Made by a program: the position numbers and the translations under genes
The notes under the pieces: generated by a model
Seen by the model: only the letters and a program-made list of their open reading frames with translations
Database searches by the model: none
What the model was told of the DNA's origin: nothing
Assembly: GCF_008831285.2 (NCBI RefSeq)
Contig: NC_045139.1
Location: 3,696,704-3,760,703, forward strand
Length of the DNA stretch: 64,000 bases
Reading direction: 5' to 3'
Source of the DNA: Nymphaea colorata
Lineage: Eukaryota; Streptophyta; Magnoliopsida; Nymphaeales; Nymphaeaceae
Part shown: positions 67 through 56,086 of the stretch, one piece after another
Position numbering within the stretch: position 1 is the first letter of the stretch
How the letters are laid out: every line of letters begins with the position of its first letter

Positions 67-498
67 GTGGACAGGTTGAAAGTTCTTGATGTCTCTAATT
101 GTTGGTATATCGAAGCCACACCTGATTTTGCTTGTACCCCTAAACTCGAAAAGTTATTCCTTGATGACTGCAGAAAGCTTCGTGAGGTTCACGAATCAAT
201 TTGTCGCCTTGAGAATTTGACCACCTTAAGTATGAGAAATTGTCAAGCTGTCGAAGAACTACCCCAGATGCATCGACGTTCCATTGCTAACCTTTCCAAA
301 CTTGAGGAACTCAATTTACAAGGTTGTCGAAGGCTTCAATCTCTTCCTCCGCTGCCGTCATCTTTAAAGACATTAATTCTGCAAGGATGCAAGCTGTTGA
401 AAGCTGTTCATGGGTTTCAACATTTGGAATCCATGGAACTATTAGACATGGATGGATGTGAAAAGATCAACTTTACATTGATGAGCAGCCTGTTTAAG
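67..498 (+). CDS. Locus A exon: LRR1b
   Basis: 144 codons of plant-type LRRs (repeated LxxLxxL with cysteine at the repeat turn, for example NLSKLEELNLQGC). The acceptor AG ends at 66 and the donor after 498 leads straight into a (CT)n tract, as at the equivalent borders of loci B and C. The exon is phase 0 at both ends. It is closest to the LRR1b exon of locus C (31349-31777), including the flanking intron, so A and C are recent paralogues. Confidence 0.8.
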
Positions 499-571
499 GT
501 CTCTCTCTCTCTCTCTCTCTTTCACATATATTTTTAGTAGACACATTCATGCTAATAAGAAATCATTGCAG

Positions 572-1536
572 GGAAAGACTTTTAGACATTTAGAGGAGTT
601 AAGCGCTTCCGCAAGTAAAACTCTGACTGAGGATGAAAATTTCTCTTTTATAGTTCCACTTGATTCACCAAGTAACCCATTGCTTCTACAGCAGTTGCAT
701 TGTTATGGGGATGGCAGCAAATCTGGCAGTCTACCTAATATTTACATTAAGGTCTGCGTTAAGGATATGGAAGACAATCTAGTAATCTATGAGACTATAT
801 TTAGCGGTTATCGTGACGTTGACAACGACATCAGTGGGCAATGCAGTTGGTGCTATACTGTTTCTTCTTCAGAATACGATGATATAAACATTTGCCCTGA
901 GCTCTATCGGCCTTGTTCAATATGTGTGTCTACGGTCGATAACTTCCCTCTAATAAGGGTTGATATTCTGCTTAGAAGTGCCCGCAGATGGACCAGAAAT
1001 TATTCAGAAGTGATTCCTGTTGGTGAGAATATAACAAATTCAAGGAGGATCTCTGCCGAGCAAAACCAGCCATTGCCATCAATGTTGTCAGCTGAATATT
1101 TTACATTTGAGTTTGATGTATTGTTCAGATATGTAGAAGAGGATATTCCTACCAAATTTATAAACAACCTATACAAGGCCCTACAACAGCATGGCATCTG
1201 CATATTTAAAGGTGAAGATGCTGAAAGTAAAGGGGAAGAATATTTGCTTAACTGCATTGAAAGATCGGCCATCTGCATACCCATCTTCTCGAAGCGCTTT
1301 CCTCAGTCAAAGTGGCACCTTAAGTCGGTTGCCAAGATGGTAGAATTTAGAAAGTTTATCATACCTGTATACTTTCAAGTCCGTCCTTTAGATATCAGAG
1401 ATCAAAAGGAAGAGTTTGGAACATATTTCTCGCGTCACAAAAATGAAGATCGAAGAGAGATTGTAGAAGATTGGAGAAAAGCATTGGAAGTTGTTGTTAG
1501 ACGATGCCATCACCAATTTATCTACAAAACAAGCAG
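572..1536 (+). CDS. Locus A exon: post-LRR domain plus degenerate TIR2
   Basis: One exon encodes about 170 residues of beta-rich post-LRR sequence and then a TIR-like domain (about 1105-1536) starting FEFDVLFRY. The TIR fold is recognisable from the alternating strands, SKRFPQSKWHL and IIPVYFQVRPLDI. The usual SFRGxDTR motif is lost. The codon where plant TIR NADases carry the catalytic Glu (WCLxE) is Ser here (1325-1327). The exon ends in phase 2 at a GT donor (1537), matching the NB2 acceptor at 2961. Confidence 0.75.
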
Positions 1537-2960
<1,424 letters not shown>

Positions 2961-3939
2961 GTACATGGAAGAACTTATTACCGTCATATGCAATCGAATT
3001 TCAAGCATGCTAAACTCAGTTACATTCAGAATAACACCCCCCTCGTTTGGTGTAAAGGATGTGATAAGAATGTTGGAGAAAGATGGAGACAATGTTTGCA
3101 TGGTTGGAATCTGTGGACAAAGTGGAATGGGGAAGACGACAATTGCAAAAGCCATATATGACCAGCTTTCTCATGACTTTGTTGACAGTGCCTTCATCCC
3201 TTATGTTCGGGCCTTCGAGGAAAGGAAATGGCAGTTTCTAGGACAAAGGGTGCTCATAGTCTTTGATGATGTTGATGGACTTGACAACTTTCAAAGTCGC
3301 GAAACAATCGATCGAGATTTGTTTGGTAAAGGAAGCAAGATAATTGTCCTTGCAAAAGACCAAAAAGACCTCATCAGTTTTGGAGGGAAGGAGGACAACA
3401 TTTATTTTGCCCATGAGCTAAACAACATGCAATCACTTCGGTTCCTTAGTTACTATGCATTTAAAGGTAAGCAACCAACAGCTGAGATTGTTGAATTAGC
3501 AAGGAAGGTGACAGAATTTGTGGGAGGACTGCCATTAGGTCTTGCGGTACTTGGCTCACTCCTTTCGAGTATGAGAACCAAAGAAGAATGGAAAAGCATG
3601 TTGGAAAAATTATCAAGTGCTCCGAATGAAGGTATAGATAAGGTACTTAAAGTAAGCATGGATGCTCTACATCCTAATCAACTACAAATATTTTTTGACA
3701 TAATATGTCGTCTAATTGGGTGTGAAAAGGAGTATGCAACTTATGTGTGGGAGGATTGTGGGTATTCTCCAACTGATGCAATAAAAGTTCTTCAGCAAAG
3801 GGCTCTTATAAGCATCGATGAGATAGGCAGGTTCAGAATGAATGACGAAATTCGAGATATGTGCAGATCGATGGTTGAAAGTGGTGAACTCAAATTTTGG
3901 ATCGAGAATGGTTTACTGGTGGCCTTTCCTGATTGGGAG
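2961..3939 (+). CDS. Locus A exon: second NB-ARC (NB2)
   Basis: 326 codons after a phase-2 acceptor. In order: P-loop GQSGMGKTT, a shortened segment before kinase-2 VLIVFDDVD, RNBS-B with AKD in place of TTR(D), GGLPLGL, and one winged-helix domain ending in MND (3838-3846) instead of MHD. Locus B and C versions are about 90 residues longer because they carry two winged-helix domains. The nucleotide switch may still bind ATP, but the sensor arginine of RNBS-B is missing. The donor at 3940 is followed by intron sequence shared with locus D. Confidence 0.77.
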
Positions 3940-4578
3940 GTACGTATGAAATTGTTCCTGACAAATTCTATTTCACATTTTCAAAGTATTTGGGACCCTA
4001 ATCTGCATGAGATTACCGATTACCTTAGGCCTGGTCAAGGCCAAAAAGGTGGGTCTGGTAAGTCAAACATTTCTTATTTTGCAGTTGAAATTACGCGGCT
4101 TACTGCTGTCTCCTTCGCTTAATCCCTCTGTTGCCTCATAATTAATTGACCAATTCTGCCTACGCCTTATTTTATTTTAGTATCAACTTCTACTTTTTTG
4201 CATGTATTAGTCTTTGAGTTAAATTTATTGAATGAACTTTTAATAAAATGCATAGTACCTTAAGAAAATATACAAGTGAATGAACTGTAGAAGTGCATAG
4301 ACGTACTTTTGGTTCTTAGAAAAAAAAAAAGAAAAAGAAACCTCATTTGTGAAGCATGTGAAAATAGTGAGTAATTAGAAACTATACACAAACAAACAAA
4401 TTTCTTAAAATATATTTGTAAGTTGATGAGTTTCCTGTAGGTCTAATAAATTTGGAAGAACAGATTTCTTAAATAAATTTGTTGGTTGATGAATTTGTTA
4501 ACTCTGATAATTTTGAAATAATTATTTTAGACCTTCATAATTGATCGACAGTAATGCTTTCGCTCACTTTATGTACAG

Positions 4579-4871
4579 GACTGGTGGATCGAAGGTCTTC
4601 ATTCCGACTTTAGTTTGCATTCAAGGACTATACCGATTGAAGCAATGGGTGATCTAAGGGTGCTCCATCTTAGAAATTGCACTGTCAATCACAAAAGCCT
4701 ACAGCCTTTGAAGACTCTTAGATGGCTACGGATGGAAAGGTGTGATGTGGATAGCTGGATATTCGAAGACGGAGGCATCCTTGAGAAACTTTTGTCCTCC
4801 AACTGCACGAATGTGACATGATAAGTCTGGGTAAGGAAGACGTGACCAGTGCAGGCAATAAGCATCAAGAG
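4579..4871 (+). pseudogene. Locus A exon: LRR2a with 1-bp deletion
   Basis: The acceptor after 4578 and donor at 4872 match loci B, C and D. The sequence encodes LRRs (EAMGDLRVLHLRNC). Compared with locus C (GAGAAACTTCTCGTCC) and locus D, locus A reads GAGAAACTTTTGTCC with one base missing. The frame then stops at 4819-4821, about 17 codons before the donor. Confidence 0.72.
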
Positions 4872-5161
4872 GTAAGAGTAGGGTTGTACAACCACTCGAC
4901 CAAACTCAATAAAAGTCCTTCAATCTAGTTTTTTTTTTTTTTTTTTTTTTTGTAATTTTCAAAAGTAAAACCAAGGAAAGTGGTCAAGTCCAATAAAGAG
5001 TTGGTAAACGTGAGCTTAAGCAAGTCGAGCTAGAATTGAGAGTCTATTGACTCAAGGTCAAGCTAACCTTGTACAGGTTGACTCGAGGTGGGCAAGATAT
5101 CAGTCGAGCAAAGTCAAGCTGACCGAGTTCGAGCACAACCCAACTCATGTACAAGAGGTCA

Positions 5162-5213
<52 letters not shown>

Positions 5214-5273
5214 AAATTAGTGCTTATTTGCATTCCATTTCTCTGACTGTAGCAAAAAAATTTTATTCTGTAG

Positions 5274-5888
5274 GTCTTCAAGAAACTGAAGGTCCTAGAG
5301 ATCATATGTTGTAGTGATGTTTATATGGCATCTCAGGATTTCTCACTCATGCCGAACCTAGTGAAGCTGGTGATTGATTTTCCATGGACTTTTGATCAAA
5401 TTCCCATGTCAGTTTGGAGGTTTGGGAAGCTCGAATACCTGAGAATTACAGGGGCAATGGAAAAACTATCCAGTAGTATCAGTAACTTGAGTTCCCTTCA
5501 AACCCTTGACCTTGGAGGATCCTATCAGCTTTATGAATTGCCAAAAGATTTAGGGGATTTGGCAGCCCTAAGAAAACTCATCCTTTGCGACTGTGCATTG
5601 TTTGAGATTCCTAGTTCTGTGGTGCAACTAAACCATCTAAGGACCCTTAACGTCAGTGGCTGTTGGAGTCTTCTCTGTCTGCCACAACTTCCGTCATCTT
5701 TGATCATTCTTGATGCCTCTGAGTGTACCGATTTGAGACAGGTTGCAGATATTTCAAGCCTAAAAGATCTAAGGACTTTGAATCTTGACAGATGTGATGA
5801 ACTTGAAGGTGTACCTGGCCTACAAAATTTAAAATCCCTAACATTTTTAAAGCTGCCATTTCATATTAGTCAGAGCGAGAACCTCTAG
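5274..5888 (+). CDS. Locus A exon: terminal LRR2b
   Basis: 204 codons plus stop, open throughout, starting VFKKLKVLEI after a TAG acceptor and ending HISQSENL. It carries about eight LRRs with NLSSLQTLDLGG and GDLAALRKLIL signatures. The upstream frameshift would put this exon out of frame. Its continued openness suggests the deletion is young, an assembly error, or bypassed by alternative splicing. A (TA)n run (about 5165-5209) lies in the preceding intron. Confidence 0.72.
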   Translation, partial: VFKKLKVLEIICCSDVYMASQDFSLMPNLVKLVIDFPWTFDQIPMSVWRFGKLEYLRITGAMEKLSSSISNLSSLQTLDLGGSYQLYELPKDLGDLAALRKLILCDCALFEIPSSVVQLNHLRTLNVSGCWSLLCLPQLPSSLIILDASECTDLRQVADISSLKDLRTLNLDRCDELEGVPGLQNLKSLTFLKLPFHISQSENL

Positions 5889-11027: not shown

Positions 11028-11575
11028 ATGTCCCTATATTCTTCAAATAGAAAGAGGACTAGGGAGGACGAAGCAGGGCCTTCTAGTGCTGCATCGTCTT
11101 CTAATGGTGGTGGCTTTGATTTCGACGTGTTTTTGAGCTTCAGGGGGAAGGACACAAGGGGCCGCTTCACTAGCCATCTTTATAAGGAGCTGAACCAGCG
11201 GGGCATATCTGCCTTCATCGACAGTGAGGGCCTGCGGAAGGGTGAAAAAATAAGCGAGCTCTTCCCATACATGGAAGCAACCCAGGTTTTTGTGCCTGTG
11301 TTGTCCAAGAACTACGCCGAGTCTAAATGGTGTCTACTGGAGGCTGCCAAGATGTTGGAACTTCACAAAGCTGATGAGGAGAATAGGTGGATTATACCTG
11401 TCTTCCTTGATGTTGCTCCTTCTGACATCAAAGATGATAGTGGATCCTTACAAGCTTCTATTACAGAATGCCAGAAGAAAAGTAAATTAGACAAGGAAAA
11501 GGCAGAAAAGTATAGATGTGTCTTGAGAACCCTTGGGCAAATTGCTGGATATAGTCTCATAACTGATGCAAACGG
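11028..11575 (+). CDS. Locus B exon 1: TIR1 domain
   Basis: The start is the ATG at 11028 (context GAAGATGTCC), giving a short Ser/Arg-rich leader. The TIR domain begins FDFDVFLSFRGKDTR. SKNYAESKWCLLEAAKM contains the expected catalytic Glu (codon 11340-11342, residue 105), and IIPVFLDVAPSDIKDD follows. This is a normal TIR of NADase type. The exon ends in phase 2 before GTACGA. Its frame continues upstream to 10935 without a stop, but 11028 gives the more usual leader length. Confidence 0.88.
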
Positions 11576-14500
11576 GTACGATGAGTATGCGCGAGCACTA
11601 TCGACGCAGAAGCATCAATACCTTATTCTTTTGCTTCCAATCCGACGGTCTTCAATAATACCGTGCGATTGCTTTATGACTTTATCATATAAAATATTGT
11701 TGTCTCCATTACGCAGAAGCATCAATACCTTATTCTTTTGCTTCCAATCCGACGGTCTACAATAATACCGTGCGATTGTTTTATGACTTTCTCATATACA
11801 ATATTGTTGTCTCCATTGAGCTTTTTGTTCTTTCATTGATTCATTATGTTTTCTCTAGTTAGTACCTCATTATTTGGTGCCATAAATAGCTTATGGCAAC
11901 CTGCAGGGATGAAGCAAAATTCTGCACCATGATATGTGATCGGATTTCTGGCATATTGAAGCGGATACCATTTGGTATGCAACCTATTGGGATTGATTAT
12001 CAAATAAATGAGGTGATGAACATGTTGGATGGAGAACCGAATGGCATTTCCGTAGTTGGAATTTGTGGAAAAGGTGGTATCGGGAAGACAACGATTGCAA
12101 TGACCATCTTCGATAAGCTCTCTCGAGAATTTAGATATAGCAGCTTTATCTCAGATGTCAGGGAAACAGCGAAGGAGCACAAGGACCTTCGCTGGCTACA
12201 AGCCAAGCTTATCTCTGATATCTCAAACGAGAAAAGTGTAACCATAGACATGGTTGACAGAGGGATTGGAAAAATAAGAGAAAAACTTGGACACAGGACG
12301 GTCCTCATAGTTCTGGATGATATTGATGACGCTGAACAACTTGATGCATTAATAGGTGACCAAGTACATATGAAACGAGAGCATTTGTTCGGCGCAGGAA
12401 GTAAGATCATTGTCACTACAAGAAGCAGGGATGTACTGATTGCTCATGGTTTCAGTATATATTGTCCCAAGGAGCTAGAATATCAACAATCACTTAAATT
12501 GTTTTGCCTTCATGCATTTAAGGTTAAGCCACCAACATCGGAGTTTCTTGACTTATCAGAGAAGATTGTCAAAGTTGCAGGGGGTTTGCCATTAGCTCTG
12601 AAAGTGTTTGGGTCACATTTTTGCTCATTAAATGGAGTTAAAAAAGTATGGGAGGTTGAGTTGGGAAAACTGCAAAAACATTCACATAAAAAGGTTATTA
12701 AAAGACTGAAAATAAGCTACGATGGATTGGATTTTTCAGAGAAGTATGCATTCTTAGATATAGCATGTTTCCTCATTGGGTCAACTAAACAGCAAGCATT
12801 ATGCATGTGGGAAGAATGCTATGCTGCAGATAGTGCAATTAATGTTCTCGAAAGCAAGTCGCTTATCAGTATCGATGTTGACAATAAGATCAGAATGCAT
12901 GATCAAATTCAAGATATGGGAAGATGGATAGTAAAAAATGCAGGAAATCTCAATCCTTACATGTACAGTAGACTTTGGGAAAGGGAGGACGTGTACAAGG
13001 TACTAAAGGTTGCCAAGGTATGGCCTGATTTTTTTCTGATTTTGTTTCGGTCATAGCATTGACCTTGTAACTAATATTGTGACTCTTGGTAAGCTGAGGC
13101 AATAAAGGAGTAATCTTAGTTTATTGATGTCAATTTGGTCTAACTCCACAATTTGGTCCAAGGTCATTTATCAATTATCAAGCCTTGAACTAAACCATTT
13201 ACCTTGTGATTAGCACATTATTTCCAACATTTATTTTACTAAATTCAACTCATAGTGTTATTCAGCAAACTCTTGGAGTCTTGTTTAGTTTGTCTTCACA
13301 TGTTCTACTTTTAACTTTTTGCCATTATATGTTGACCACCATAGGAAGGTTAATCAAATTCTAAGGCAATAGTTTCTCTATGGTTTTTTGCATAATTTTG
13401 TCTCAACAGCATTATGATTATGTCTTGTTTGCTTAGATATAAGGTCCTTATTGAATTTAATGTCGTTTTACACCATGAGATGTAAAGGGATTCCTATGGA
13501 CAGTTCAGTGTAATGTTCAAATGTTGAGATGGACTCTGTGACCAAGTATTTTCTCCAAGTTAGCTTGTATTGACTCGAAAAACCAAACATTTTTGCATAG
13601 TTTGGTGCCTGATTTTTATGATTTATCTTTTGTTTTCACATTCTTTTTCCATCGTAGATAGGGACATATGACTCTTCCAAAACATTTTTTGAGAATCTGA
13701 TTTTGCCTTTTATTTGACAGACTTATGTTACAATTATTCTGATTAATAGATGCTCTCAACAAGAACCCTTGTTATGTATTTACTGACGAATGTAAACAGA
13801 ACATCCCACCTTCCACAGGTCAGGATTGGACAATACTCTCTTATAATTTTGTTCAATCATTCTAGGACCTTAAAACTAAAACTTGCATGCCTCAGCATTG
13901 CTTAACATTCAATTAATGATTATATTATACATATACACACACACACACATACACACAAACACACACACATATACATGCACACATGTATATACAAGTTTCT
14001 ACATATATATATATGTATTGTCTGCTGATAACGTCATGAAAGACGGAATTGTTAAAGATACCAAATTGCTTGTCTAACAAAGTCTTGTTTTTTTCTATAG
14101 AGAAATAATTCAGTGGAAGGTATTGTTCTCAATACAGAAGAGGAATGTGGTACTGATTTGGTCGGCACTAAAGCATTTAAGGACATGTCCAACTTAAGAT
14201 TACTGCGTCTCAATTTTGTTAGCTTCCAGGAGTTTGACATTACTGACTTTCCTGAAGGACTAAAATGGCTAGAATGGAAGGGATGTGAGATGGAGACTCT
14301 GTTTTTTGATCATAGGTTTAACAACCTTGTTATCCTTAATCTATCACGAAGCAACATCATGCAACTACAATGGGGACAAAAGGTTAGATTGCTAACACAA
14401 GTTGCCACTCCTTTGACTTTAAAATTTAGGTTGCATATCTTAACCTTACTATAATAGTTTTTGCCAGCAGTTTTATAGACTGAAGGTCCTTGATCTTTCA

Positions 14501-14921
14501 TACTGTTCGTATCTTGAACGTACACCCAACTTCGACTGCATCCCCCAACTGGAGAAATTGCTCCTTGATGGCTGCAATGCATTGAATGATATTGATACGT
14601 CCATTTGCCTTCTTAGAAACTTAAACATCCTAAGTATGAGGGATTGTGCATCTCTGGAGGAGCTGCCCAACCATATCGGATTGCAACAAAAAGGGCAAAG
14701 TTCAATGTCTAACATGTCCAAGCTTGAGGAACTCAATCTGCAAGGTTGTGAACAGCTTCAATGTCTTCCTCGACTTCCATCATCTTTGAAAAGACTGCTT
14801 CTGCAAGGATGTAAGAAGTTGAAAATTGTTCATGGATTTGAAAATTTGAAATCGATAGAACTATTAAACATGGATGGATGCGAAGGAATCAACTATTTTT
14901 TCACGTGCAAACTATATCAGG

Positions 14922-14969
<48 letters not shown>

Positions 14970-17900
14970 TCACATGCTAATAAGAAATCATTGCAGGGGA
15001 ATACCTTCACACATTTAGAGGAGTTGAGCATTTCAGGAATTAACACCATGAGTGACGGCGAAAACTACTCTTTTGCAGTTCCACTTTGTTTAAGTAGTCC
15101 ATTACTTCTAGAGAATTTGCAGTGTTATGGGGGTTCGGGCAATCTATGCAATGGCTACATTAAAGTGTGTCTAAAGGATATGGAAGACAATCAAGCATTC
15201 TATGAGACCATACTCAGCATCTACCGTGACATTGACAAAGAAACTGATGATGTTTTGTGCTACACTGTTTCTTTTCCAAAATGTGATGATATAAATTTAT
15301 TCATCGGCCTTTCTGCACCTTGTTTAATATGTGTGTCTACGATCGATAACTTCCCTCTAGAAAGGGTTCATATTCTGCTTAAAAGCGCTAACAAATGGAG
15401 TGGAAAGTATTCTAAAGTGATTCATGTAGATGAGAGTTCTGCAAATTCATGGAGGATTTCCACCAAGCAAAGCCAACTTTTACCGTCAATTCCGTTACAA
15501 GTATCAGAGTCTACATCCGAAAATTATACATTCGGGTTCGATGTGTTGGTCAGCTTTACAAAGGTAGATATTGTCCCAAATTTCGTGGACAGTCTATGCA
15601 AGGCCCTACAAGCCCATGGCATCCTCATATTTAATGGGGAAGATGATGAGAGCAAGGGGGTCAAAGTTGAGGAAATGCTTAAACGCATCAACAAACTGCC
15701 CATCTGCATACCCATCTTCTCGAAGTGCTTTTCTCAATCAAAGTGGTGCCTTAGTTCAGTTGCCAAGATGGTAGAATATAAAAAGTTGATTTTACCTGTA
15801 TACTTTCAGGTGGCTCCTTTAGATATTGGACGTCAGAGAGGAGACTTTGGAACATATTTTTCAAAACATGATGATGAAAAAAGAGAAATTGTGGAAGGTT
15901 GGAGAAAAGCATTGGAAGTTATAGTTACACAATGCAATCACCAACTTATCTACGAAACAAAGAGGTCTGTTTCTCTCTCCCTCGTTCCTCAATACCTTCT
16001 TCGACATATCCTGTCGAAATTAATTTCAATGGTTTACTGTAATAATTCATATAATTGATGATACGCTTGTATACTAAATAAGAAACTAAACGTAATTAGT
16101 TAGACGATAAGTGAAGTTTTGGTCATGTCATTCTTGCAAGACAATTTACGAACCCATTTCTTGTAACCAGGTCAAGTCACTGTTCATGTCTTCATGGAGG
16201 AGGGTTTTGTAGTTGACACACACAAGAAAGAGAGAGAGTCATGCCTTGGCAGATTATATTTGAGGAGGTGCAAACCCATGATTGACAGATTAAATTTATG
16301 TTGCCCAATGTTCTTGAGATATCCACCCTCACGCTTGAAATTTCAATAGAAGGCTGGTCTGGGGTGTGCATAGCTGCAATATACCCTAGTTTAAACGTAA
16401 CTACAACACAACATAGCATAAAAAAAAGTCTTCGCGAAACTTCTTTTTACGCTGTAAGGCAAAGGATGACTTCAGGAAAAATAGGTGGAACCCCACGACC
16501 ATACTTGTTTTCCAGAAAATGTAGCCTTTGCAGCTCTAACACAGGTCAACTGGTTTTGGCACTTGATTTCAGGACGTATGGGTTAGTGAAATTTCAGTGA
16601 GATGAGGATAAAAGCAAATGTTTTTATTCTTCCTGTTTCCTCAGTCCCCAACAAATGTTGTACTCGTTTGCTGTGTATACATACTTGTTTTTTTTTTCTA
16701 TTTTAAATTACATTTTGTTGATTTTTAAATATAAAAATTGTGTAATGTATATGCTTATGTAGTGTATGGACTGATGCTAAAGAGCACTAATTGCTATTAT
16801 TCAATGCAACACTACTTTAGAAGGTGATGGGTCTTGCTCAATGCTTCTTTGGAATGGTTGAATTTGCTTTTATTCAATGCAACACTATCTTTTGGTAATC
16901 GTTCCTATCCTAATCAACTTTTAAGGTGCGTCCCATCAAATTTTCCCAACCGTGAAAAGCCATTTATTATATCCACGAAAAATTCAAAGTAAAAAGACAA
17001 TTCACCATTGAATCAATAAAAGGACAATAAATGATTTTTTAAAAATGTACAAACAGTGCCTTGCTAAAGTAAATTGTTGATAAGATTAAAGAGAGAGAGA
17101 GAGAGTGTGTGTGTGTATGTGCTTTTTGTGCCCCTAGCGGACTGGGTGAGTGATTTTCATGGGGAGTGATTTACGAAAGAAAGGATGTTTATTACTCATT
17201 GGTAACATCTGAAAACTTAATATAACTTTGGAACTGATAAAAAATGTTATAAAAATTCTTTCATTGTAAAAGAGTTATGAAAAAGTAGCTAGTTTAATTT
17301 GTCATACTACATTTCCTTTCTCCTTGTTGATTTCCATGTCTATTTTTCACGTCAGGTATACGGAAGAAATTATCTCCATCATACGTGATCGGATTTCTAG
17401 CATGTTAAACTCTATTGGATCCAGAGTACGTACTATCCTGATGGATCCTCGTGCAAACGGTGTGATGACACTGTTGGGGAAAAAAACTGACGGTGTTTGC
17501 ATGGTTGGAATCTATGGACAAAGTGGAATCGGGAAGACGACAATTGCAAAAGCTGTATATGAGCAACTATCTCATAAATTTGACGGCAGTGCCTTCATCC
17601 TTGATGTTGGGGCCCTTGCTAGAACGGGCGAGCTTATGTCACCAAAAGGAAAGGCACGGCAGTTTGGACGACAGAAAAAAGTGCTTATAGTCTTTGACAA
17701 TGTTGATGGACTTGATGCATTTGAAAGTGACCAAATATTTGATCGAGCATTGTTTGGTGAAGGAAGCAAGATAATTATCATAGCAAAGGACAAAAAGGAA
17801 CTCACTAGTTGTGGACTGCAGGAGGTCAACATTTATTTTGCCTGCGAGCTGAACAACACGCAATCACTTCGATTGCTTGGGTACCATGCATTTAAAGGTA

Positions 17901-20900
17901 AGCAACCAACAGCTGAGATTGTTGAATTAGCAAGGAAGGTGACAGAATTTGCTGGAGGATTGCCATTAGCTCTTGTGGTACTTGGCTCACTCCTTTCGAG
18001 TATGAGAACCAAAGAAGAATGGGAAAGCATGTTGGAAAAATTATCAAGTGCTCCGGGTGAAGGTTTAGATAAAGTACTTAAAGTAAGCATGGATGCTCTA
18101 CATCCTCATCAACAACAAGTATTTTTTGACATAGCATGTCTAAAAGAGTGTGCACCTTCACTATGGAAGGACATTGGACACTATCCAGGCAATACCATCA
18201 AATTTCTTGAAGAGAGGTGTCTCATTAGCCTTGATGCTCAAGACGGACCTAGGATGCACGACCCCATCCGAGATTGGGGTCGAAGATGGATAGCACAAGA
18301 AGGCTACAAGTGCTCGACGCCGGCCATGAACATTTTTGGGTTGGATCTTCAGCAGCAGAATATATTTTTGGACATAGCATGTTATCTCATTGGCCGTGAA
18401 GAGGAGTATGCAACTTATATGTGGGAGGATTGTGGGTACTCTCCAACCGATGCAATCAAAGTTCTTCAGGACAGGTGTCTTATAAGGATCGATGAGGATG
18501 GCAGGTTCAAGATGAAAGACTACATTCGAAATATGGGCAGATCGATGGTTGAAAAAGGTGAACTCAGTCCTTGTATGTATGGCAGAATTTGGAACGAGAA
18601 TTTGCCAGAGAGTCTTCGGGATTGGGAGGTATGCATGAATTGTCTTCCACATTTTCAAAATATTTGGGAACCTAACCTGCAGTTGATTGCACAATGCTTT
18701 AGGCCTAACAGCTTGGGTTGGGTGTGATCTATATATATATATAGCCCACATCTTTTGAACAGTTTCATCAATACGCTTATACATATGACCTTGGTCCCAG
18801 AGGATCTGATTGACTCAGATTGTATATAGATAGCCCACATTTTTTGAACAGTTTCATCAATACGCATATACACACGACCTTGGTCCCAGATGATCTGATT
18901 GACTCAGATTGTTGGGCAATTGACTCGAACAAGTGGTGACTCTAAATAAGGAAGAATACTATTTCTACGTAAAATACTATATGCGGGTAGTTCAACCGTG
19001 ATCTGAATTGGGGAAAAGGAGATAGAGTCTGGTTATTGACCAAAATGATGAAGTGGCAAATGCAATGGTACTGTGGGGCTTGGTCAGATCAGTTGTGGAT
19101 CTGATCCCTTCCCCTAGCTATGGTAAGTCTATTTTATTTATGTGAACTTTTTCTTTTTAATTTACATGTATTTCAAATTAGTCTTTGAGTTAAATTTCGA
19201 ATGTAGTCTTTCACCTTGAGAAACGATTCAAGTGAATGAACTGTAGAACTACACTCATTTGTGAAGTATGTGAAAATGGTGAGTAATTGGTAACTAAACA
19301 CAAAATTACAGAATTCTTAAATATATTTGTCGGTTGTTGAGTCTCCTATAGGTCTAATAAATTTGAGAGAACAGATTTCTTACATAAAATTTATTGGTTA
19401 ATGAATTTGTCAATTACCTGTAAGTCTGATACTTTTGAAAAACAATCATTTTAGACTTTCCTAATTGATATGAAGTAATTCTTTTCGCTTGATATATAGG
19501 GCTGGAGCAATGATCAGATCGAAGGTATTAATGCTCTCCTTAGTTGGCATTTGAGGGCTGTTAGGATTGAAGCAATGGGCAATGTAAGAGTGGCCCATCT
19601 TATACGTTGCTATTTCCTTCAGCCACAGCCTTTAAAGAATCTCAGATGGCTACGGATGGAAATGTGTGTTGTTGATAGCTGGTTATTGAATGACGGAGGC
19701 ATCCTTGAGAATCTTGTTGTCCTGCAACTGCATTACTGTCGCATGTGGTCGCGGGGTGAGGAAGACGTGGTCGTTGCAAGCAATAAACGTCAAGTGGTAA
19801 GGGTAGAGATGTACAATGAGTCATGAACTCGGGCTGGACTTGAACCCACTGGGTGAAGCTCCACTTGAGTCAGAGCTCAACCAAAAATTGGAGTTTATAA
19901 TTACTAGTCATTCGAGTTGCATGAACTCACGTCCATCAAACTTGAGCACACTTGTTTAATTTAGGTCTTTTTTTTTCCCAATTTTCAAACTTAAAACCAA
20001 GGAAAGAGGTCAAATCACATGCACATTAAATGAGTCCAAGGACTCGGTCTACTGAGTGGAAGTCAAGCTGACCTTGTACAGATCAACTCAAGCTCGGGCT
20101 TGAGCTGAACAAGATAGATATGAGTTAAGTTCAGTCGAGCTGACCAAGCTCGAACTCCACTAAGCTCGTGTACAGCTCGAGATAAGGGCGTCAGCATGTC
20201 TCTTTCTATCTCTCTCGCTTTCTCTCTCTATCTATCTGTAAATTAACACTTATTCGCATTATATTTTCTTTGACAATAGCAAAAAATTTTGATTCTGCAG
20301 GTCTTCAAGAAACTGAAGGTTCTAGAGATCTTAGGTTGTCAACGTGTGTCTCTTGATTTCTCACTCATGCCGAGCATATTGAAACTGGTGATTGAGGAGT
20401 CGCGGGAATTTGATGAAACTCCCAAGACGATTGCGGGCCTTAGTAAGCTCAAATACTTGAGAATTACAGACTGTCAGGGACTGAAGAAACTATCCAGCAG
20501 TGTCAGTAACTTGAGTTCCCTTGAAACCCTTCAGCTTGGAGGATGCCGAAAGCTTCAAAAGTTGCCAGAATGTCTGGGGGATTTGGCAGCCTTAGGAGAA
20601 CTCATCCTTTCAGGCTGTCAGTCATTAGAAAAAATTTATAATTCCATAATCAAACTAAACCGTCTACATACCATCGACATCAGTGGCTGTCGGTCTCTTC
20701 CATATCTTCCACAACTTCCATCCTCTTTGATCACTCTTGATGCCTCTGGGTGTACCAATTTGAGACAGGTCGCAGATATGTCAAGCCTAAAAGATCTAAA
20801 GACTTTGAATCTAGATGGATGTGATGTACTTCAAGACTTACCTGGCCTACACAATTTAAAATCCCTAACATTTTTAAAGCTGCCATTTCATATTAGTCAG

Positions 20901-20915
20901 AGGGAGAAGCTGTAA
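11028..20915 (+). CDS. Locus B: complete double TNL receptor (TIR-NB-LRR-TIR-NB-LRR), 8 exons
   Basis: Exons 11028-11575, 11907-13017, 14101-14382, 14471-14920, 14997-15964, 17356-18628, 19500-19796 and 20301-20915 join at GT/AG sites to 5544 nt, predicting 1847 aa with no internal stop. Domains by residue: TIR1 about 28-180, NB1 183-553, LRR1 554-797, post-LRR domain about 798-975, TIR2 about 978-1120, NB2 1120-1544, LRR2 1545-1847. The first half has the expected catalytic motifs (TIR Glu105, P-loop, TTR, MHD). The second TIR has Ser1051 at the catalytic Glu position, and NB2 has a duplicated winged helix. TNLs are intracellular immune receptors whose oligomerised TIRs cleave NAD+. Most family members have one TIR-NB-LRR set and are roughly 1000-1300 aa, so this is unusually long. 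The alternative is two adjacent genes split between TIR2 and NB2. Confidence 0.75.
11576..11906 (+). other. Locus B intron 1 with 107-bp tandem duplication
   Basis: A sequence beginning ACGCAGAAGCATCAATACC at 11604 is repeated at 11711 (period 107 bp) with few differences. The TIR1 frame reads through part of it and would end at 11765 if the intron were retained, giving a TIR-only product. Confidence 0.6.
11907..13017 (+). CDS. Locus B exon 2: NB-ARC 1
   Basis: 370 codons plus the first base completing a phase-2 junction. Canonical TNL NB-ARC: P-loop GKGGIGKTT (about 12067-12093), kinase-2 VLIVLDDID (12301-12327), RNBS-B GSKIIVTTRSRD (about 12400), GGLPLAL (about 12579), FLDIACFLIG, and MHD (12895-12903). 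All switch residues are present, so it should bind and exchange nucleotide. I placed the donor at AAG/GTATGG (13018), which leaves the usual spacing to VEGIVL in the next exon. Confidence 0.87.
13018..14100 (+). other. Locus B intron 2
   Basis: A 1.08 kb AT-rich intron with no gene seen. It contains a (CA)n-rich stretch (about 13937-13985) and a short (TA)n. The acceptor TTTTTTCTATAG is strong. Confidence 0.55.
14101..14382 (+). CDS. Locus B exon 3: LRR1a
   Basis: 94 codons, phase 0 at both ends. It begins RNNSVEGIVLN, the conserved NB-ARC to LRR linker of TNLs, then AFKDMSNLRLLRLN and later WLEWKGC and NLVILNLSRSNI. The small separate first LRR exon is normal in plant TNL genes. Confidence 0.83.
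14471..14920 (+). CDS. Locus B exon 4: LRR1b
   Basis: 150 codons of LRRs (LKVLDLSYC, NLNILSMRDC, KLEELNLQGC, SLKRLLLQGC). The acceptor is a CAGCAG tandem, so the exon may start 3 bases earlier in some transcripts. The donor is followed directly by (CT)n and (CA)n. Confidence 0.83.
14997..15964 (+). CDS. Locus B exon 5: post-LRR domain plus catalytically dead TIR2
   Basis: The first ~175 residues are beta-rich sequence without a leucine repeat, in the position where many TNLs carry a C-JID/post-LRR domain, though no C-JID signature was recognised. From about 15538 a TIR-like domain follows (FGFDVLVSFTKVDI, then IPIFSKCFSQSKWCL, then LILPVYFQVAPLDI). The codon aligned with the catalytic Glu is TCA, Ser1051 (15756-15758). 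The RG of SFRG is replaced. The exon ends TAC GAA ACA AAG AG in phase 2, exactly like TIR1 to NB1. If the next intron were retained the frame would stop at 16058. Confidence 0.8.
15965..17355 (+). other. Locus B intron 5 (between the two receptor halves)
   Basis: A 1.39 kb AT-rich intron with no TIR or other exon recognisable. It contains a (GA)n/(GT)n tract (about 17092-17120). An in-frame ATG at 17336 lies just before the NB2 acceptor. No promoter-like change in composition was seen, but transcription starting here cannot be ruled out. Confidence 0.5.
17356..18628 (+). CDS. Locus B exon 6: NB-ARC 2 with duplicated winged helix
   Basis: 424 codons after one phase-completing base. P-loop GQSGIGKTT is intact. 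Kinase-2 reads VLIVFDNVD. RNBS-B reads GSKIIIIAKDKKEL, so the TTR arginine is missing. The segment between RNBS-A and kinase-2 is much shorter than in NB1. Two winged-helix segments follow in tandem: FFDIAC (about 18128) to RMHD (18253-18261), and FLDIACYLIG (about 18367) to KMKD (18512-18520). A second copy of this subdomain is unusual for an NLR. Locus C shares it; loci A and D do not. Confidence 0.8.
18629..19499 (+). other. Locus B intron 6 with 89-bp duplication
   Basis: Contains a short (TA)n and a block starting AGCCCACATCTTTTGAAC at 18743, repeated at 18832 (period 89 bp). The same block flanks the microsatellite in B2 near 22564. No gene seen. Confidence 0.55.
19500..19796 (+). CDS. 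Locus B exon 7: LRR2a
   Basis: 99 codons, phase 0 both ends, after the acceptor GATATATAG. It contains EAMGNVRVAHLIRC, NLRWLRMEMC and NLVVLQLHYC. Frame is intact where locus A has lost a base. Confidence 0.77.
20301..20915 (+). CDS. Locus B exon 8: terminal LRR2b
   Basis: 204 codons and TAA. Begins VFKKLKVLEILGC and has about eight LRRs (SNLSSLETLQLGGC, GDLAALGELILSGC, LKDLKTLNLDGC), ending KLPFHISQREKL. No domain follows the second LRR. The matching ends of A and D show this is the native C-terminus. Confidence 0.82.
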   Translation, partial: VFKKLKVLEILGCQRVSLDFSLMPSILKLVIEESREFDETPKTIAGLSKLKYLRITDCQGLKKLSSSVSNLSSLETLQLGGCRKLQKLPECLGDLAALGELILSGCQSLEKIYNSIIKLNRLHTIDISGCRSLPYLPQLPSSLITLDASGCTNLRQVADMSSLKDLKTLNLDGCDVLQDLPGLHNLKSLTFLKLPFHISQREKL

Positions 20916-22566: not shown

Positions 22567-23566
22567 CATATCTTTTCAACACTTCCATCAATATGCATAT
22601 ACGAATACCTTGGTTCCTTGCGATTTGAGTGACTCAGATTGCTGGGTGACTCAAACAAGTGTATACTCGATCTGAGTTTGCCAAAGGAGAAAAGAGCCAG
22701 GTTATTGACCAAAATAATAGAGAGGCAAATGCAATACTACTGTGGGACTTGGCCAGATCAGTTGTGGATCTGATCCCCTTTCGTAGCTATTGTAAGTCAA
22801 ATTTTTCCTATTTTCCAATTGAAAGTACATGGCTAGCTGCTGCCTCCTTCGGTTAATCCCTACATTCTCTCATAAGTACTTGACCAATTCTTCCGACGCA
22901 TTATATTTTATTTATATCCCCTTTTTCTTTTTTACATGTAATTCGAATTAGTCATTGAGTTAAATTTATTGATTGAACTTTTTAATAAAATGACACAGTA
23001 CCTTAAGAAAAGTTACAAGTGATTGAACTGTACAACTGTGTAGAAATATTTTTGAAATAAACTATGCTAATTTGTGAAGTATGTGAAAATGGTGAGTAAT
23101 TGGTTGCTAGACACAAAAGAATAGATTCTTAAATATCTTTGTTGGTTGATGAGTTTCCTATAGGTCTAATAAATTTGAAAGAACAGATGTCTTAAATAAA
23201 TTTGTTGGTTGATGAATTTGTCTGTTACCTGTAAATCATATAATTTTGAAACAATTATCTTAGACCTCCTAATTGATCTAAATTAATTCTTTTTGCTTAC
23301 TTGATATACAGGGCTGTAGCAATGATCAGATAGAAGGTATTAATGTTCTGTTTATTGGGCATCCAAGGCCCATGCGCATTGAAGCAATGGGTAATTTAAG
23401 GGCGCTCCATCTTACAAATTGCTATTTCCAAAACAATTGTCTACAGCCTCTGAAGAATCCGAGATGGCTACGGATGGAAGGGTGTGATGTGGATAGCTGG
23501 ATATTTAAAGACAGAAGCATCCTTGAAAAACTTCGTCCTCCAACTTCACTCCTGTCAAGTGCTGCC

Positions 23567-24578
23567 TGATAAAGAGTAAATCAGCAACACCAGAATTTAG
23601 GGATATCCAAAATAAGAATGTGCTGAAAATCAAGGAGATCGTTAAAGACATTGAGGATGAGAATGCACTCAATGGAAAGACAAAAATCAAGGAACTGTTG
23701 AGGAAGAGGTTGATGATGAAAACTCAGGAAAGGCAAAAATCAAGGAACCGTTTTCTAGATAATGAATGAATGTCTTGTAACAGCTCCTTAAAATAAGGAG
23801 TTATCTCAGCTGTAATGCCTATATGAGAGATTGGCATACTTTAACAATTTAAAGGCCAATGGTCTTCCGTGGGTAAAAAGAATATGCTCCACGTTAATCT
23901 CCTAAGTTTTTTTCTGTTATTGCTTTATGTTTTTCAACATAGTATCAGAGCCACGTTACTTGACGAAGAAGAATGAAGCCCATAGATGGTATGCAGACGA
24001 CCAAAGAGATCGCTACCTTCTTCACCAAAGCTAGAACTCGATCCTGTGAACAAAATCTTCAGGAATCAAACTTGAGATTTCTGAATTGCTGCCACAGCAT
24101 GATCTGCCTAACAAAGTTGCCGATATTTGTGCGAAAGCCTTATCCAGATCCGCCACCGAAAATCTTGGAGGCAAACTGGGTGTCGTTTACCCACCACTCA
24201 GTTTGAGGGGGCATGATAAAGAGTAAATGAGCAAGAGGAGAATTTAAGGATATCCAAAATAAGAATGTGCTGAAAATCAAGGATGAGAATGCACTCAATG
24301 GAAAGTCAAAAATCAAGGAACCGTTGAGGAAGAGGAAGACGTTGATGATGAAAACTCAGGAAAGGCAAAAATCAAGGAACCGTTTTCTAGATAATGAATG
24401 TCTCGTAACAGCTCCTTAAAATAAGGAGTTACCTCAGCTGTAATGTCTATATAATGCCTATATAAAAGATTGACATACTTTAACAATTTTAAGGCCAATG
24501 GCCTTCTATAGGTAAAGAAAATATGCTCCACGTTAATCTCCTAAGTTTTTTTCTGTTATTGCTTTATGTTTTTCAACA
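23567..24578 (+). mobile_element. Short Copia-derived LTR element, complete, with 5-bp TSD
   Basis: Two direct LTRs, 23567-23939 and 24214-24578 (373 and 365 bp), both begin TGATAAAGAG and end TTTTTCAACA (TG...CA). CTGCC flanks both ends (23562-23566 and 24579-24583), a 5-bp target duplication. Right after the 5' LTR is TAGTATCAGAGCCA, a near match to the primer-binding site complementary to initiator Met-tRNA. A polypurine tract (GAGGGGGCA) precedes the 3' LTR. The 274-bp interior retains only the tail of a Copia polyprotein (SATENLGGKLGVV, PPLSLRG). It is a non-autonomous deletion derivative of TRIM-like size, inserted in the B2 LRR2a exon. Confidence 0.88.
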
Positions 24579-25581
24579 CTGCCATTGGGTAAGCAAGCAA
24601 TACACATCAAGAGGTAAGGTAGCGCTATTCAACAAGTCGAGCCAACACGAGCTCCACTAGCTCCACTCAACCCCACTTGGCTAAGCTTGGTTTGAGTTCG
24701 GCTCGAGTTTATAAATGAGTGGAGTTGAAGTTACCTGAACGCGACTCAATTAAACTCCAGTAAACTGGTTTAATTTAGGTTGTCTAACCAAGGAAAGAAG
24801 TCAAATCGCATGGAGATTGGGTGAACTAGATTAAACGAGCCAAAGTCGAACTAGCTCTCTGTCTAACGAGTCAAGCTCAAACTGACCTTGTACAGGGGCC
24901 AGCACGTGTCTCTCACTCTCGCTCTGTGTCTCTTTCTAGATTAATGCTTTTCCGCAGTTTGTTTCTCTGACCATAGCAAAATATTTTAATTATGCAGGTC
25001 TTCAAGAAACTGAAAGTTCTAGAGATCTTGGGTTGTCAACATGTTGAAATTGGTTCCCTTGATTTGTCACTCATGTCGAACCTAGTGAAGCTGCTGATTG
25101 ATGAATCATGGGAATTTGATGAAATTCCCAAGTCGATTTGGGGGCTCAGGAAGCTTGAGTACTTGAGAATTACAGACTGTTGGCTACTGGGAAAACTATC
25201 CAGCAGTATCAGTAACTTGAGTTCCCCTTCAAACCCTTGACCTTGGAGGGTGAGGATTGCTTTCAAAGTTGCCTGAAGGTTTGGAGGATTTGGCAGCCCT
25301 AAGAGAGCTCCTCCTTCGCTACTGTCTGTCATTGAAAGAGATTCCATGATCTAAGGACCCTTATCCTCTGTAGCTGTAGGAGCCTTCATTGTTTGGCGCA
25401 ACTTCCATCATCTTTGATCACCCTTGATGTCTTTAGGTGTATCAATTTGAGACAGGTCGCAGGTATTTCAAACCTACAAGATGTAAAGACTTTGAATTTA
25501 TTTGGATGTGATGAACTTCAAGTTGTAACACTTCATTTTTAAAGCTGCCATTTCATTTTAAATGAGAGGGAGAAGCCTTAG

Positions 25582-28786: not shown

Positions 28787-42844
<14,058 letters not shown>

Positions 42845-48370: not shown

Positions 48371-51300
48371 TCTTGACTCTAGATGTAGTATATATCTAGA
48401 AACGAGATAACTTCAAATTTGAATAGTTTAATTTAAGATTGAATGGTCCAGAGTTTTAAGTCTTTCCCTTCCTTCCTCTCCTCCATTCTCCCCAATCGGT
48501 CTTTTAGATTCATTCCTAACCCTCTCAAAAAGAGTTTGAACTCACTACATTTCTTATTTAACTTCATCAATGTTGCCGATGGCTAGTTGATTGGGAGAAG
48601 GCTGCCTATTTGTAAGTGGAAAGACAAATTCTCCCTTGAATTAATAAAAAATAATTCATCTTTAAAAGAACCGAAAAAGCAATTTTTTATAATAAATTAC
48701 CAACTTGCCCATGGTGATGGAGAGAGAGAGAGAGAGGAGAGAACTTGGAGAAGTGGAGAGTGGGGCCTAAGACCCGGCAGTATCAGCCTAAAAAATGGTT
48801 ACTTCAATTTTAACCAACAGCCTTCAATACTATCTGGATAGTATTCTCCAATAATTGAACTGACGACATGCATAACATGTTACTCAGCCTGACCAGTTGC
48901 ACTATCCATCATTTGGTGTGTGTATGAGAGAGAGAGAGAGAGAGAGGTTCGTGTTTCATTAATGTGCTTAGTGGTTAATTTGCTTGGACAGTAGCGTACA
49001 AAAGAAAGAATATTGTGTATAGTTGACATAAAAAAATTAATATATGTAATAATGTAAAGCTGGGAAATGATAAAAAGAATATTCACAAAGAATGTTGCGA
49101 AAATTCTCTACTGTATAGCAAAGAAATTTACTTAATCTTAGGATAAGGGATATGAAAACCCAGTTTAGCTTTCATAATACATGTGTTTCCTCTCCATTCA
49201 TTCTCAATTCCCATTGGCTATGACATGCACTCCGCTATGTACTTTTCACTTCAGGTACGTGGAGGAACTTATTACCGTCATATGCAATCGGATTTCAAGC
49301 ATGCTAAACTCAGTTACATTCAGAATGACACCCCCTTGGTTTGGTGTAAAGGATGTGATCAGAATATTGGAGAAAGATAGAGGCCATGTTTGCGTGGTCG
49401 GAATCTATGGACAAAGTGGAATCGGGAAGACTACAATTGCAAAAGCCATATATGACCAACTATCTCATGAATTTGATGGCAGTGCCTTCATCTCTTATGT
49501 TCGTGCCTTCGAGGAAAGGAAATGTCAGTTTAAACGACAAAGAGCACTTATAGTCTTTGATGATGTTGATGGACGTGATGAATTTGAAAGTGGTGAAATA
49601 TTTGATCCAAATTTGTTTGGTAAAGGAAGCAAGATAATTGTCACTGCAAAAGACAAAGGAGACCTCATCCGTTATGGAGTGAAGAAGAAGAACATTTATT
49701 TTGCCCACGAGCTAAACAACATGCAGTCACTACAGTTGCTTGGTTACTATGCTTTTAAAGGTAAGCAACCAACAACTGAGATTGTTGAATTAGCAAGGAA
49801 GGTGACAGAATTGGCTGGAGGGCTGCCATTAAGTCTTGCGGTACTTGGCTCACTCCTTTCGACTATGGGAACCAAAGAAGAATGGGAAAGCATGTTGGAA
49901 AAATTATCAAGTGGTCGGGGTGAAGGTATAGATAAAGTACTTAAAGTAAGCATGGATGCTCTCCATCCTAATCAACTAGAAATATTTTTTGACATAGCAT
50001 TGCATCTAATTGGGTGTGAAAAGGAGTATGCAACTTATATGTGGGAGGATTGTGGGCACTCTACAACCGACACGATCGACGTTCTTCAGCAACGGTGTCT
50101 TATAAGCATCGATGAGAAAGGCAGGTTCAGGATGCATGACCAAATTCGAGATATGTGCGGGTCGATGGTTGAAAAGGGCGAACTCAAAATCTCTAAAGAG
50201 AATGGTTTAGTGGTGGCCTTTCCTGGTGATTGGCGGGTACGTATGAAATAGTTTCTGACAAATTCTATTTCACATTTTCAAAGTATTTGGGAACCTAATG
50301 TGCATGAGATTACCCATTACCTTCGGCTTGGTCAAGGCCAAAAAGGTGGGTCTGGTATGTCACATATTTTGTATTTTGCAGTTGAAAGTACATGGCTAAC
50401 TGCTGTCTCCTTGGCTTAATCCCTCTATTGCCTCATTAGTAGTTGACCAATTCTGCCCACACCTTATTTTATTTACTATGAACCTTTTTTTTTTGCATGT
50501 ATTAGTATTTGAGTGAAATTTATTGAATGAACTTTTAATAAAATGGCATAGTACCTCAAGAAGATACAAGTGAATGAACTGCATAGACGTACTTTTGATT
50601 CTTTGAAAAAGAAAAAAAAAATCATTTGTGAAGCATGTCAAAATGGTGAGTAATTAGATACTAAACACGAAAGAACAAATTTCTTAAATAGAGTTGTGAG
50701 TTGATGAGCTTACTGTCGGTCTAGTAGATTTGAAAGAACACATTTTTTAAATAAATTTGGTGGTTGATGAATTTGTCAGTTACCTGTAAGTCTGATAATT
50801 TTGAAATAATCATTTTAGACCTTCATAACTGATCTAAAGTATTGCTTTGGCTCACTTTATGAACAGGACTGGCAGATCGATGGTCTTCTTTGTCGCTTTA
50901 GGTGGCCTACACGGATTGAAGCAATGGGTACACAGATTGAAGCAATGGGCAATCTAAGGATGCTCCATCTTACAAATTGCGTTGTCGAGCACAATAGCCT
51001 ACAGCTTTTGAAGAATCTTAGATGGCTACGGATGGAAAGGTGTGGGGAGTCCAGCCCGAAAGTAATTAACGACGGAGGCATCCTTGAGAAACTTCTTGTC
51101 CTCCAACTGCACGAATGTGAGATGCCAAGGCTGGTTAAGCAATTCATGACCACTGCACGCAATAACCATCAAGAGGTAAGAGTAGGGTTGTACAACCACT
51201 ACTCACCAAGTTCGAGCAGAACTGGGGTCAACACATCTCTCTCTCTCTCTCTCTAAATTAATGCTTATTTGCATCCCGTTTCTCTGACCGTAGCAAAAAA

Positions 51301-55769: not shown

Positions 55770-56086
55770 AGCAGATTCTGAGACCATGAGCAGTTTGATA
55801 AGGAAAGTAGAAGAACAGGGACGATGAGAGGAATAGACCTTTTTTTCATTCTCTATTCCTCTCATCGTTCTATGAAATTCTACCATGGTGGATCTCTTAT
55901 TCACTGATCCTTTGTCTCTAATACCATGATAAGGAACGTAGAAGAACAGGGAAGATGAAAGAATTTCATAGAAGAACAGGGACGATGAGAGGAATACGAT
56001 ATACATTTTGTCATTCTCTATTCTTCTCATCGTCCCTGTTCTTCTACGTTCCTTATCAAACTGCTCATCGTCTCAGAATCTACTAC
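55770..56086. mobile_element. Fold-back / MITE-like inverted-repeat element
   Basis: The left arm (55770-55835: AGATTCTGAGAC, CAGTTTGATAAGGAA, AGAACAGGGACGATGAGAG) is the near-perfect reverse complement of the right arm (about 56020-56086). Arms are ~65 bp and total length ~317 bp. The interior holds further direct and inverted partial copies of GAAGAACAGGGACGATGAGAG (near 55935-56000). No coding capacity. No target duplication was settled. Confidence 0.7.

Follow-up and report, generated by a model that had tools for sequence, protein, structure and literature searches.

Can a single plant gene encode two complete immune receptors in one polypeptide? The question is raised by a stretch of 64,000 nucleotides from the water lily Nymphaea colorata (contig NC_045139.1 of assembly GCF_008831285.2, positions 3,696,704 to 3,760,703 of the forward strand; hereafter the window), in which four related loci (A to D, all on the plus strand) resemble genes for TIR-NB-LRR (TNL) proteins, a class of nucleotide-binding leucine-rich repeat receptors (NLRs). 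Only locus B (11028-20915) is complete. The original prediction was that its eight exons form one continuous frame for two TNLs, and this holds: joined in silico at GT/AG borders in matching phases, they give 5544 nt and 1847 amino acids without an internal stop, in the order TIR-NB-LRR-(post-LRR)-TIR-NB-LRR, so that two receptor units lie head to tail in one frame. The product is identical to P0001, an NCBI prediction from N. colorata named 'RUN1-like isoform X2'. That entry comprises three member sequences which are not viewable one by one; its label would imply another isoform, and no second isoform of locus B was found among the 120 of 365 protein matches listed. Use of the alternative exon 2 donor at 12999 would give a protein of 1841 amino acids. 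We favour, with a probability of about 0.45, a model in which locus B encodes a single chain of two TNL units that would work as sensor and executor in cis, and in which the units became fused before Nymphaea and Victoria diverged.

How is the double unit built? The front unit begins with TIR1 in exon 1 (11028-11575) and continues with NB1, an NB-ARC domain with a winged helix, in exon 2 (11907-13017, with alternative donors at 12999 and 13008). LRR1 starts in exon 3 (14101-14382) and continues in exon 4 (14471-14920). Exon 5 carries first the post-LRR region (14997-15524) and then TIR2 (15525-15964), and these two share one open exon at loci A, B and C alike. Intron 5 (15965-17355, phase 2) separates TIR2 from NB2 in exon 6 (17356-18628), and LRR2 begins in exon 7 (19500-19796) and runs through exon 8 (20301-20915) to the stop. 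The exons end in phases 2,0,0,0,2,0,0,0. As had been noticed at the outset, the TIR2-NB2 junction therefore has the same phase (2) as the TIR1-NB1 junction, and it does so in both locus B and locus C; a TIR-NB intron in phase 2 is the norm of the TNL family. A Pfam scan of exons 1 to 6 recovered TIR1 (2e-30), NB1 (2e-26), a winged helix (2e-12) and one LRR family above cut-off in the front unit, and TIR2 (3e-16, exon 5), NB2 (1e-19) and the winged helix twice (both in exon 6) in the back unit. LRR2 was assigned by eye, from exon 7 onwards, and by the similarity of exon 8 to exon 4; with this assignment the family order of TIR, NB-ARC and LRR is present in locus B. In the scanned exons every Pfam match above cut-off belonged to a TIR, NB/P-loop NTPase, winged-helix or LRR family, and no Pfam match to C-JID (PF20160) follows LRR1. 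The post-LRR region likewise has no Pfam match. It is predicted to be beta-rich, with strands at residues 23-130 of the exon 5 model, a poor model with a mean predicted local distance difference test score (pLDDT) of 41; a fold search with it returned nothing at E <0.001 (the top rows were a viral capsid, other chains and one TIR), and we draw nothing firm from it. The predicted model of exon 6 (pLDDT 71) found ROQ1 (E 4e-16) and RPP1 (E 7e-16) as its top Foldseek matches. With template-modelling (TM) scores of 0.44-0.45 and a root-mean-square deviation of about 15, these matches back the identity of the NB-ARC domain but not the domain arrangement. Two introns of locus B contain tandem duplications, one of 107 bp in intron 1 (11604-11817) and one of 89 bp in intron 6 (18734-18912).

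Are the two units equivalent? In HMMER alignments that fix the catalytic position, TIR2 'SKWCLSSVAKMV' lies against 'SKWCLMELAEIV' of the flax protein L6, and TIR1 'SKWCLLEAAKML' lies against the same stretch of L6. The glutamate of this L6 motif is the established catalytic residue of plant TIRs. TIR1 retains it (SKWCLLEAAKM) together with the R and G of the FRG motif, and TIR2 has serine in its place and lacks that R and G, as do the other TIR2 rows, so that of the two TIRs in the locus B chain only the first carries the catalytic glutamate. The catalytic glutamate of plant TIRs is also discussed in a review (here and below, what we say of published work refers to those parts of each source that were available). 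In a set of 165 TIR rows, composed of the TIRs from the first two protein searches plus locus C and thus of search matches rather than a census, the catalytic column reads E in 149, S in 8, V in 2, K in 1 and R in 1, with a gap in 4. All eight serine rows are TIR2 rows, and they represent seven distinct copies because P0122, the NCBI model of locus C, and locus C are one and the same; the other 157 rows have glutamate in 149, another residue in 4 and a gap in 4. A larger set of 302 rows gives E 277, S 12, Q 2, V 2, R 2, K 1, M 1 and gap 5, and four of its 12 serine rows are first TIRs of Salix viminalis. We regard TIR2 as probably dead as an NADase. That it has lost the enzyme residue in each copy examined makes a fused receptor pair likelier than an annotation accident. 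Chance or faulty annotation was in any case rejected as the principal explanation, given the open exon shared by the post-LRR region and TIR2 at three loci and the recurrence of the layout in a Victoria model (see below).

A similar imbalance may recur in other plants. Among 235 proteins, less nine rows of the water-lily double-TNL family and four in which the residue is not readable, 8 of 58 multi-TIR proteins combine a Glu-less with a Glu-keeping TIR, and 3 of 164 single-TIR proteins are Glu-less (Fisher P 0.0012). This count draws on searches seeded with the locus B gene, and four of the eight proteins come from Salix viminalis and are therefore not independent. In these eight (P0004, P0026, P0147, P0168, P0169, P0173, P0189 and P0225) the glutamate is lost from the first TIR, and in P0004, from Arachis, from the third as well; in the water lilies the Glu-less TIR is the second. 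A state of 'one live, one dead' TIR may thus have arisen repeatedly.

When and from what did the double unit arise? A search of related genomes for the same architecture had been suggested with the original prediction, and such an architecture was found: the Victoria cruziana model P0002 (1907 amino acids, 49% identity over the query region) has the order T-N-T-N, with 396 residues from NB1 to TIR2. A second Victoria protein, P0003, is a partial copy of this layout, and Nymphaea thermarum has P0123, with NB1, TIR2 and the start of NB2, and P0124, with a TIR2 piece followed by a winged helix and LRR2. TIR2 is joined to NB2 in five of the seven family models recognised among the matches listed (P0001, P0002, P0003, P0121 and P0123); of the other two, P0122 stops after TIR2 and P0124 links its TIR2 piece to the later part. 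The protein searches covered the best 120 of 254 matches, 20 from 7991 scored candidates and the best 120 of 365, so more family members are possible. In a tree of 28 NB rows, NB1 and NB2 form one group (100/99) against 18 other rows, within which the six NB2 rows (100/100) and the NB1 rows of B, C, Victoria and N. thermarum (91/87) are each united. The tree is drawn at its midpoint, and reading NB1 and NB2 as sisters requires a root among those 18 eudicot and other water-lily rows. With that root, NB1 and NB2 are closer to each other than to any other NB in the tree, which points to head-to-tail duplication of one TNL before the Nymphaea-Victoria split and backs the head-to-tail origin suggested earlier. 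A tree of 35 TIR rows places six TIR2 rows in one group (100/99) on a long stem, within a larger water-lily group (18 rows, 83/91); another two rows from water lilies group with eudicots, and the branching of TIR1 relative to TIR2 is left open. Neither tree contains a grape row. Two other origins were considered. On the NB tree we reject fusion of two unrelated TNLs, and an ancestral double TNL common to legumes or other eudicots is not supported, since TIR1 and TIR2 fall within the 18 water-lily rows and NB1 groups with NB2.

How much of this is new? The layout itself is known: the original prediction held that tandem-domain TNLs had been catalogued as TNTNL and TNLT types, but a review and NLR catalogues already list TNLTNL proteins for grape, Brassica and sunflower (PMC3782705, PMC4008172, PMC6115920), and the locus B protein is itself an existing NCBI prediction. 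The catalogued proteins share the domain order of locus B within one predicted protein. In the available parts of those papers, however, they are entries only (in sunflower a single gene), with nothing on conservation between genera or on catalytic status, whereas the water-lily lineage spans two genera with a shared loss in TIR2. What appears to be new is a double TNL with a catalytic asymmetry common to two genera. In the literature on TNLTNL proteins, on N. colorata TNLs and on NLR pairs, we found no title or abstract about the locus B gene, and in the available part of the paper on the water-lily genome TNL comes up a single time, in a legend on NLR expansion. Database models from other plants, among them Gastrolobium P0005, Punica P0147 and Linum P0201, resemble locus B in having two TIR-NB sets more than 400 residues apart; kinship was checked for the first TIR of P0005 only, and in P0147 the first TIR is the Glu-less one. 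P0005, from Gastrolobium bilobum, is a separate TNLTNL-like protein, the second TIR of which was recovered as two partial matches that leave the catalytic region uncovered, so that a model error is possible. Closer to home, N. thermarum P0125 and P0145 and N. colorata P0148 also have two TIR-NB sets per predicted protein. Unlike locus B, they have fewer than 100 residues from the first NB to the second TIR and no readable Glu-less TIR, and they were not counted as family; P0125, the only one of them in the trees, falls away from the TIR2 and NB2 groups.

Better-studied receptors offer two comparisons. RPP2A carries an extra N-terminal TIR-NB and works in the pair RPP2A/RPP2B (PMC3782705, PMC9528088, PMC4246468). 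Such TNTNL proteins also have two TIR-NB sets, but no LRR between NB1 and TIR2, where the water-lily proteins have 396-412 residues comprising LRR1 and the post-LRR region. The second comparison is with genuine pairs. Cell death by CHS3-CSA1 requires the glutamate of CSA1 and the P-loops of both partners, the complex being likely a dimer of heterodimers, and RRS1 lacks the catalytic glutamate, an asymmetry described for RPS4/RRS1 (PMC11298796). The likeness to locus B lies in two TNLs, a Glu-less TIR on one side (RRS1) and P-loops in both units (needed in CHS3-CSA1); in locus B these read GKGGIGKTT and GQSGIGKTT in translation. The difference is that those pairs are two genes head to head, whereas locus B is one chain, head to tail, derived from a duplicated TNL.

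How, then, might such a chain work? An asymmetry of the CHS3-CSA1/RRS1 type within one chain favours a pair in cis with TIR1-NB1 as executor. In this chain a single open exon carries the post-LRR region and TIR2, and an intron in phase 2, as between TIR1 and NB1, would then join TIR2 to NB2. TIR1-NB1, which retains the enzyme residue as well as the motifs usual for a nucleotide switch, would be the executor, and TIR2, without the NADase residue, would together with the diverged NB2-LRR2 act as sensor or regulator. At rest, the second unit would hold the first in check, and binding of a pathogen effector at an LRR or post-LRR surface would lift this restraint. Two chains might then dimerise to bring together four TIRs, two of them catalytic, after the manner of the dimer of heterodimers proposed for CHS3-CSA1, and the covalent linkage would fix both the pairing and a 1:1 dosage. 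The original prediction had seen two NLR switches in one chain, a cis version of a paired-NLR system. Retention of glutamate in TIR1 and its loss in all seven TIR2 copies found, as in RPS4/RRS1, agree with the pair, but with TIR2 Glu-less and the motifs of NB2 eroded, two equivalent switches are not supported.

Is locus B simply the best-preserved member of a decaying cluster, its fusion a functionless by-product of tandem duplication? Across the whole genome, four strong matches to the NB2 exon were found, and each of them lies within the window (B 100%, A 69%, C 68% and D 68% identity), and the next by score is at 38%, with short stretches lower in the list reaching 53%; 99 of 384 candidates were scored, so this count is a lower bound. 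Whether TIR2-type exons lie elsewhere in the genome was judged from this search and a Pfam TIR search in which 150 of 256 candidates were scored. Locus A (67-5888) has exons 4-8, as had been claimed for the 3' part, with exon 3 just upstream of the window, but exon 7 is frameshifted near 4794, and NB2 has one winged helix. A search of 39 kb upstream recovered neither TIR1 nor NB1, save that exon 2 is matched on the reverse strand by two very short stretches near -8.5 kb (E 7e-4). The NCBI model of this locus (P0121, 929 amino acids) begins in exon 4, splices exon 5 to exon 6 and omits exon 7. At locus C (28787-42844) all eight exons are present, and the lengths given earlier for this repeat of the arrangement, 5763 nt and 1920 amino acids, were reproduced, but a 26-bp tandem duplication shifts the frame of the last exon so that it ends short of the end of B. 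Locus D (49255-51959) has exons 6-8 only (NB2-LRR2), with one winged helix and 644 open amino acids, and exons 7-8 recur as a broken remnant in the interval from B to C (23312-25575, plus strand).

The frameshift of A with its missing front, the shortened C, the remnant, and a ratio of non-synonymous to synonymous change (dN/dS) near 1 in LRR2 are what such decay would leave. The frames themselves argue otherwise. Under neutral simulation, the mean number of stops in exons 6-8 was 11.0 for B, 8.0 for C and 5.9 for D, and 9.3 in exon 5 of B, yet the real frames are open; runs without a stop made up 0.25% for D and 0 of 2000 for exons 6-8 of B, for C and for exon 5 of B. The simulation is rough, its substitution level of about half the pairwise synonymous divergence (dS) having been chosen by the analyst, and C is open only to its early end. 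For TIR2, two of the three comparisons indicate purifying selection (dN/dS 0.38 for B-C and 0.45 for A-B, intervals below 1), and the post-LRR region has values of 0.41-0.51. For the front unit they are 0.13 in TIR1, 0.39 in NB1 and 0.17-0.38 in LRR1, save for exon 3 of LRR1 in A-C (0.67, interval including 1). Given also that a Victoria model shares the layout, we think it quite improbable that the fusion is without function.

Several further features of the cluster may be recorded here. Intron 5 of locus C contains a probable element: long minus-strand frames at 34725-38644 look, by eye only, like the endonuclease and reverse transcriptase of a non-long-terminal-repeat retroelement, and the NCBI model of locus C ends before it. 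LRR2 of locus C includes a 135-bp tandem unit in 3.8 copies (42138-42651). At 56063-56390, an NB1-like fragment close to the front half of locus B (50-58% identity, in two frames) heads a tandem array (56063-63850) with a unit of about 1,236 bp, the copies of which are mostly 94-99% alike, with one stretch at 72%; a further front half was seemingly broken up there. Downstream of the window, in window numbering, plus-strand stretches like exon 8 of locus B at 74899-75784 (52-54% identity, two frames) represent a further LRR2 remnant, and at about 87.3-91.4 kb the minus strand carries consecutive TIR, NB and LRR matches, spread over more than one frame, which mark another TNL beyond the cluster.

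Do the two halves belong to one transcript? They might instead give two products, a TNLT ending in read-through after exon 5 and a separate NL from exons 6-8, through two transcription units or alternative ends. The NCBI model of locus C (P0122, 972 amino acids), which skips exon 4, reads through past the exon 5 donor and stops just after TIR2, is such a TNLT; locus D is an open NL without exons 1-5, and in-frame ATGs occur a short way upstream of exon 6. The halves also have separate histories. Between B and C, dS comes to 2.41, close to saturation, in TIR1, to 1.18 [0.87-1.69] in NB1 and 1.45 and 1.53 in LRR1, as against 0.69 and 0.63 in exon 5, 0.25 [0.18-0.33] in NB2 and 0.32 and 0.29 in LRR2; that is, 1.2-2.4 over exons 1-4 and 0.25-0.32 over exons 6-8. 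Block identities give NB1 of C and Victoria 61%, of B and Victoria 45% and of B and C 44%, and for NB2 68% between B and C, 54% between B and Victoria and 51% between C and Victoria. A tree of the front half leaves four of five rows in one open fork with B as a long branch, and we therefore rely on dS and block identity. The halves thus differ in synonymous age, which suggests exchange between loci, with either the back half homogenised or the front swapped.

Transcripts that always end after TIR2, with others starting before NB2 and none spanning the 15964/17356 junction, had been named as the pattern that would refute a single gene. Among the models, that of locus C shows this pattern, but those of A and B, of N. 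thermarum P0123 and of Victoria P0002 and P0003 span the junction. Similarity among A, B and C falls just past the exon 5 donor, and similarity among A to D rises at the exon 6 acceptor. Upstream of that acceptor, 29 nt of A, C and D are absent from B, so the frame there is not kept between B and the other three loci, which speaks against a separate NL start. This pattern supports an intron rather than a conserved start upstream of NB2, although it does not prove the joining of both ends. We consider two products unlikely and favour a single transcript that would cross both units.

What weighs against a sensor and executor in one chain? First, NB2 departs from the usual switch: TTR is changed to (I/L/T)AK, and MHD reads MHD or MKD in B, INN or MDD in C, MND in A and MHD in D, so that NB2 may not switch. 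Second, the histidine of the alpha-A 'SH' pair of TIR2 is replaced by S, N or K, and the AE interface is required in both CHS3-CSA1 partners (PMC11298796). Third, an N. benthamiana TNL without the glutamate still gives resistance (PMC12856790), and a missing glutamate is thus no proof of a sensor role. Fourth, constraint on the back half is uneven: dN/dS of TIR2 in A-C is 0.80 with an interval including 1, the B-C interval for NB2 reaches 1.01, and LRR2 lies at 0.74-1.36 with intervals including 1 in nine of nine comparisons. The last would fit a surface under either diversifying or relaxed selection, which are not told apart. Finally, the early end of the locus C model and the lone, open NB2-LRR2 of locus D count against it, N. 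colorata proteins may have guided the models from Victoria and N. thermarum, which would then not be independent, and the support consists throughout of predicted models and sequence.

The lost 'SH' histidine and the eroded NB2 are the main weakness, for they favour a module that regulates rather than switches. It is therefore plausible that the second half is an integrated module (a decoy, scaffold or brake) on one working front TNL, comparable to the integrated domains of other NLRs. The loss from TIR2 of the catalytic glutamate and of R and G of FRG would suit such a role, as would the erosion of NB2, the doubled winged helix in B and C, and the B-C comparison, in which TIR1, NB1 and LRR1 are more tightly constrained than NB2 and LRR2; the paired NLRs listed in the literature include melon Prv, which has an NB at its C terminus, and RPP2A, with its extra TIR-NB. 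The number of winged helices varies within the family, with two in NB2 of B and C by Pfam, one in A and D, and two read from the sequence and the split NB matches of Victoria P0002 and P0003. In exon 6 of A (2961-3939) and D (49255-50236) one is missing at the same place, most simply read as a loss through exchange between repeats. Yet NB2 keeps the P-loop, kinase 2 and GLPL motifs, as read from the alignment, and is followed by an LRR, and its dN/dS is 0.58-0.72 with intervals excluding 1 in five of six comparisons. A mere module is doubtful, though it deserves serious consideration, and we continue to prefer two TNL units acting as sensor and executor in cis.

What would this mean for receptor evolution? 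Double TNLs are usually filed as oddities and are easily mistaken for fused gene models. A lineage in two genera that has kept the catalytic residue of one TIR and lost that of the other allows a test of whether one and the same NLR can serve as both sensor and executor, a matter left open for NLRs with integrated domains by a pan-NLRome study (PMC6709784). More tentatively, as a possibility rather than a probability, the water lilies may have made an NLR pair permanent by fusion before Nymphaea and Victoria split, with chains that act as dimers and modules that have been exchanged among loci, renewing the receptor. The lineage would also offer structural work a natural covalent pair.

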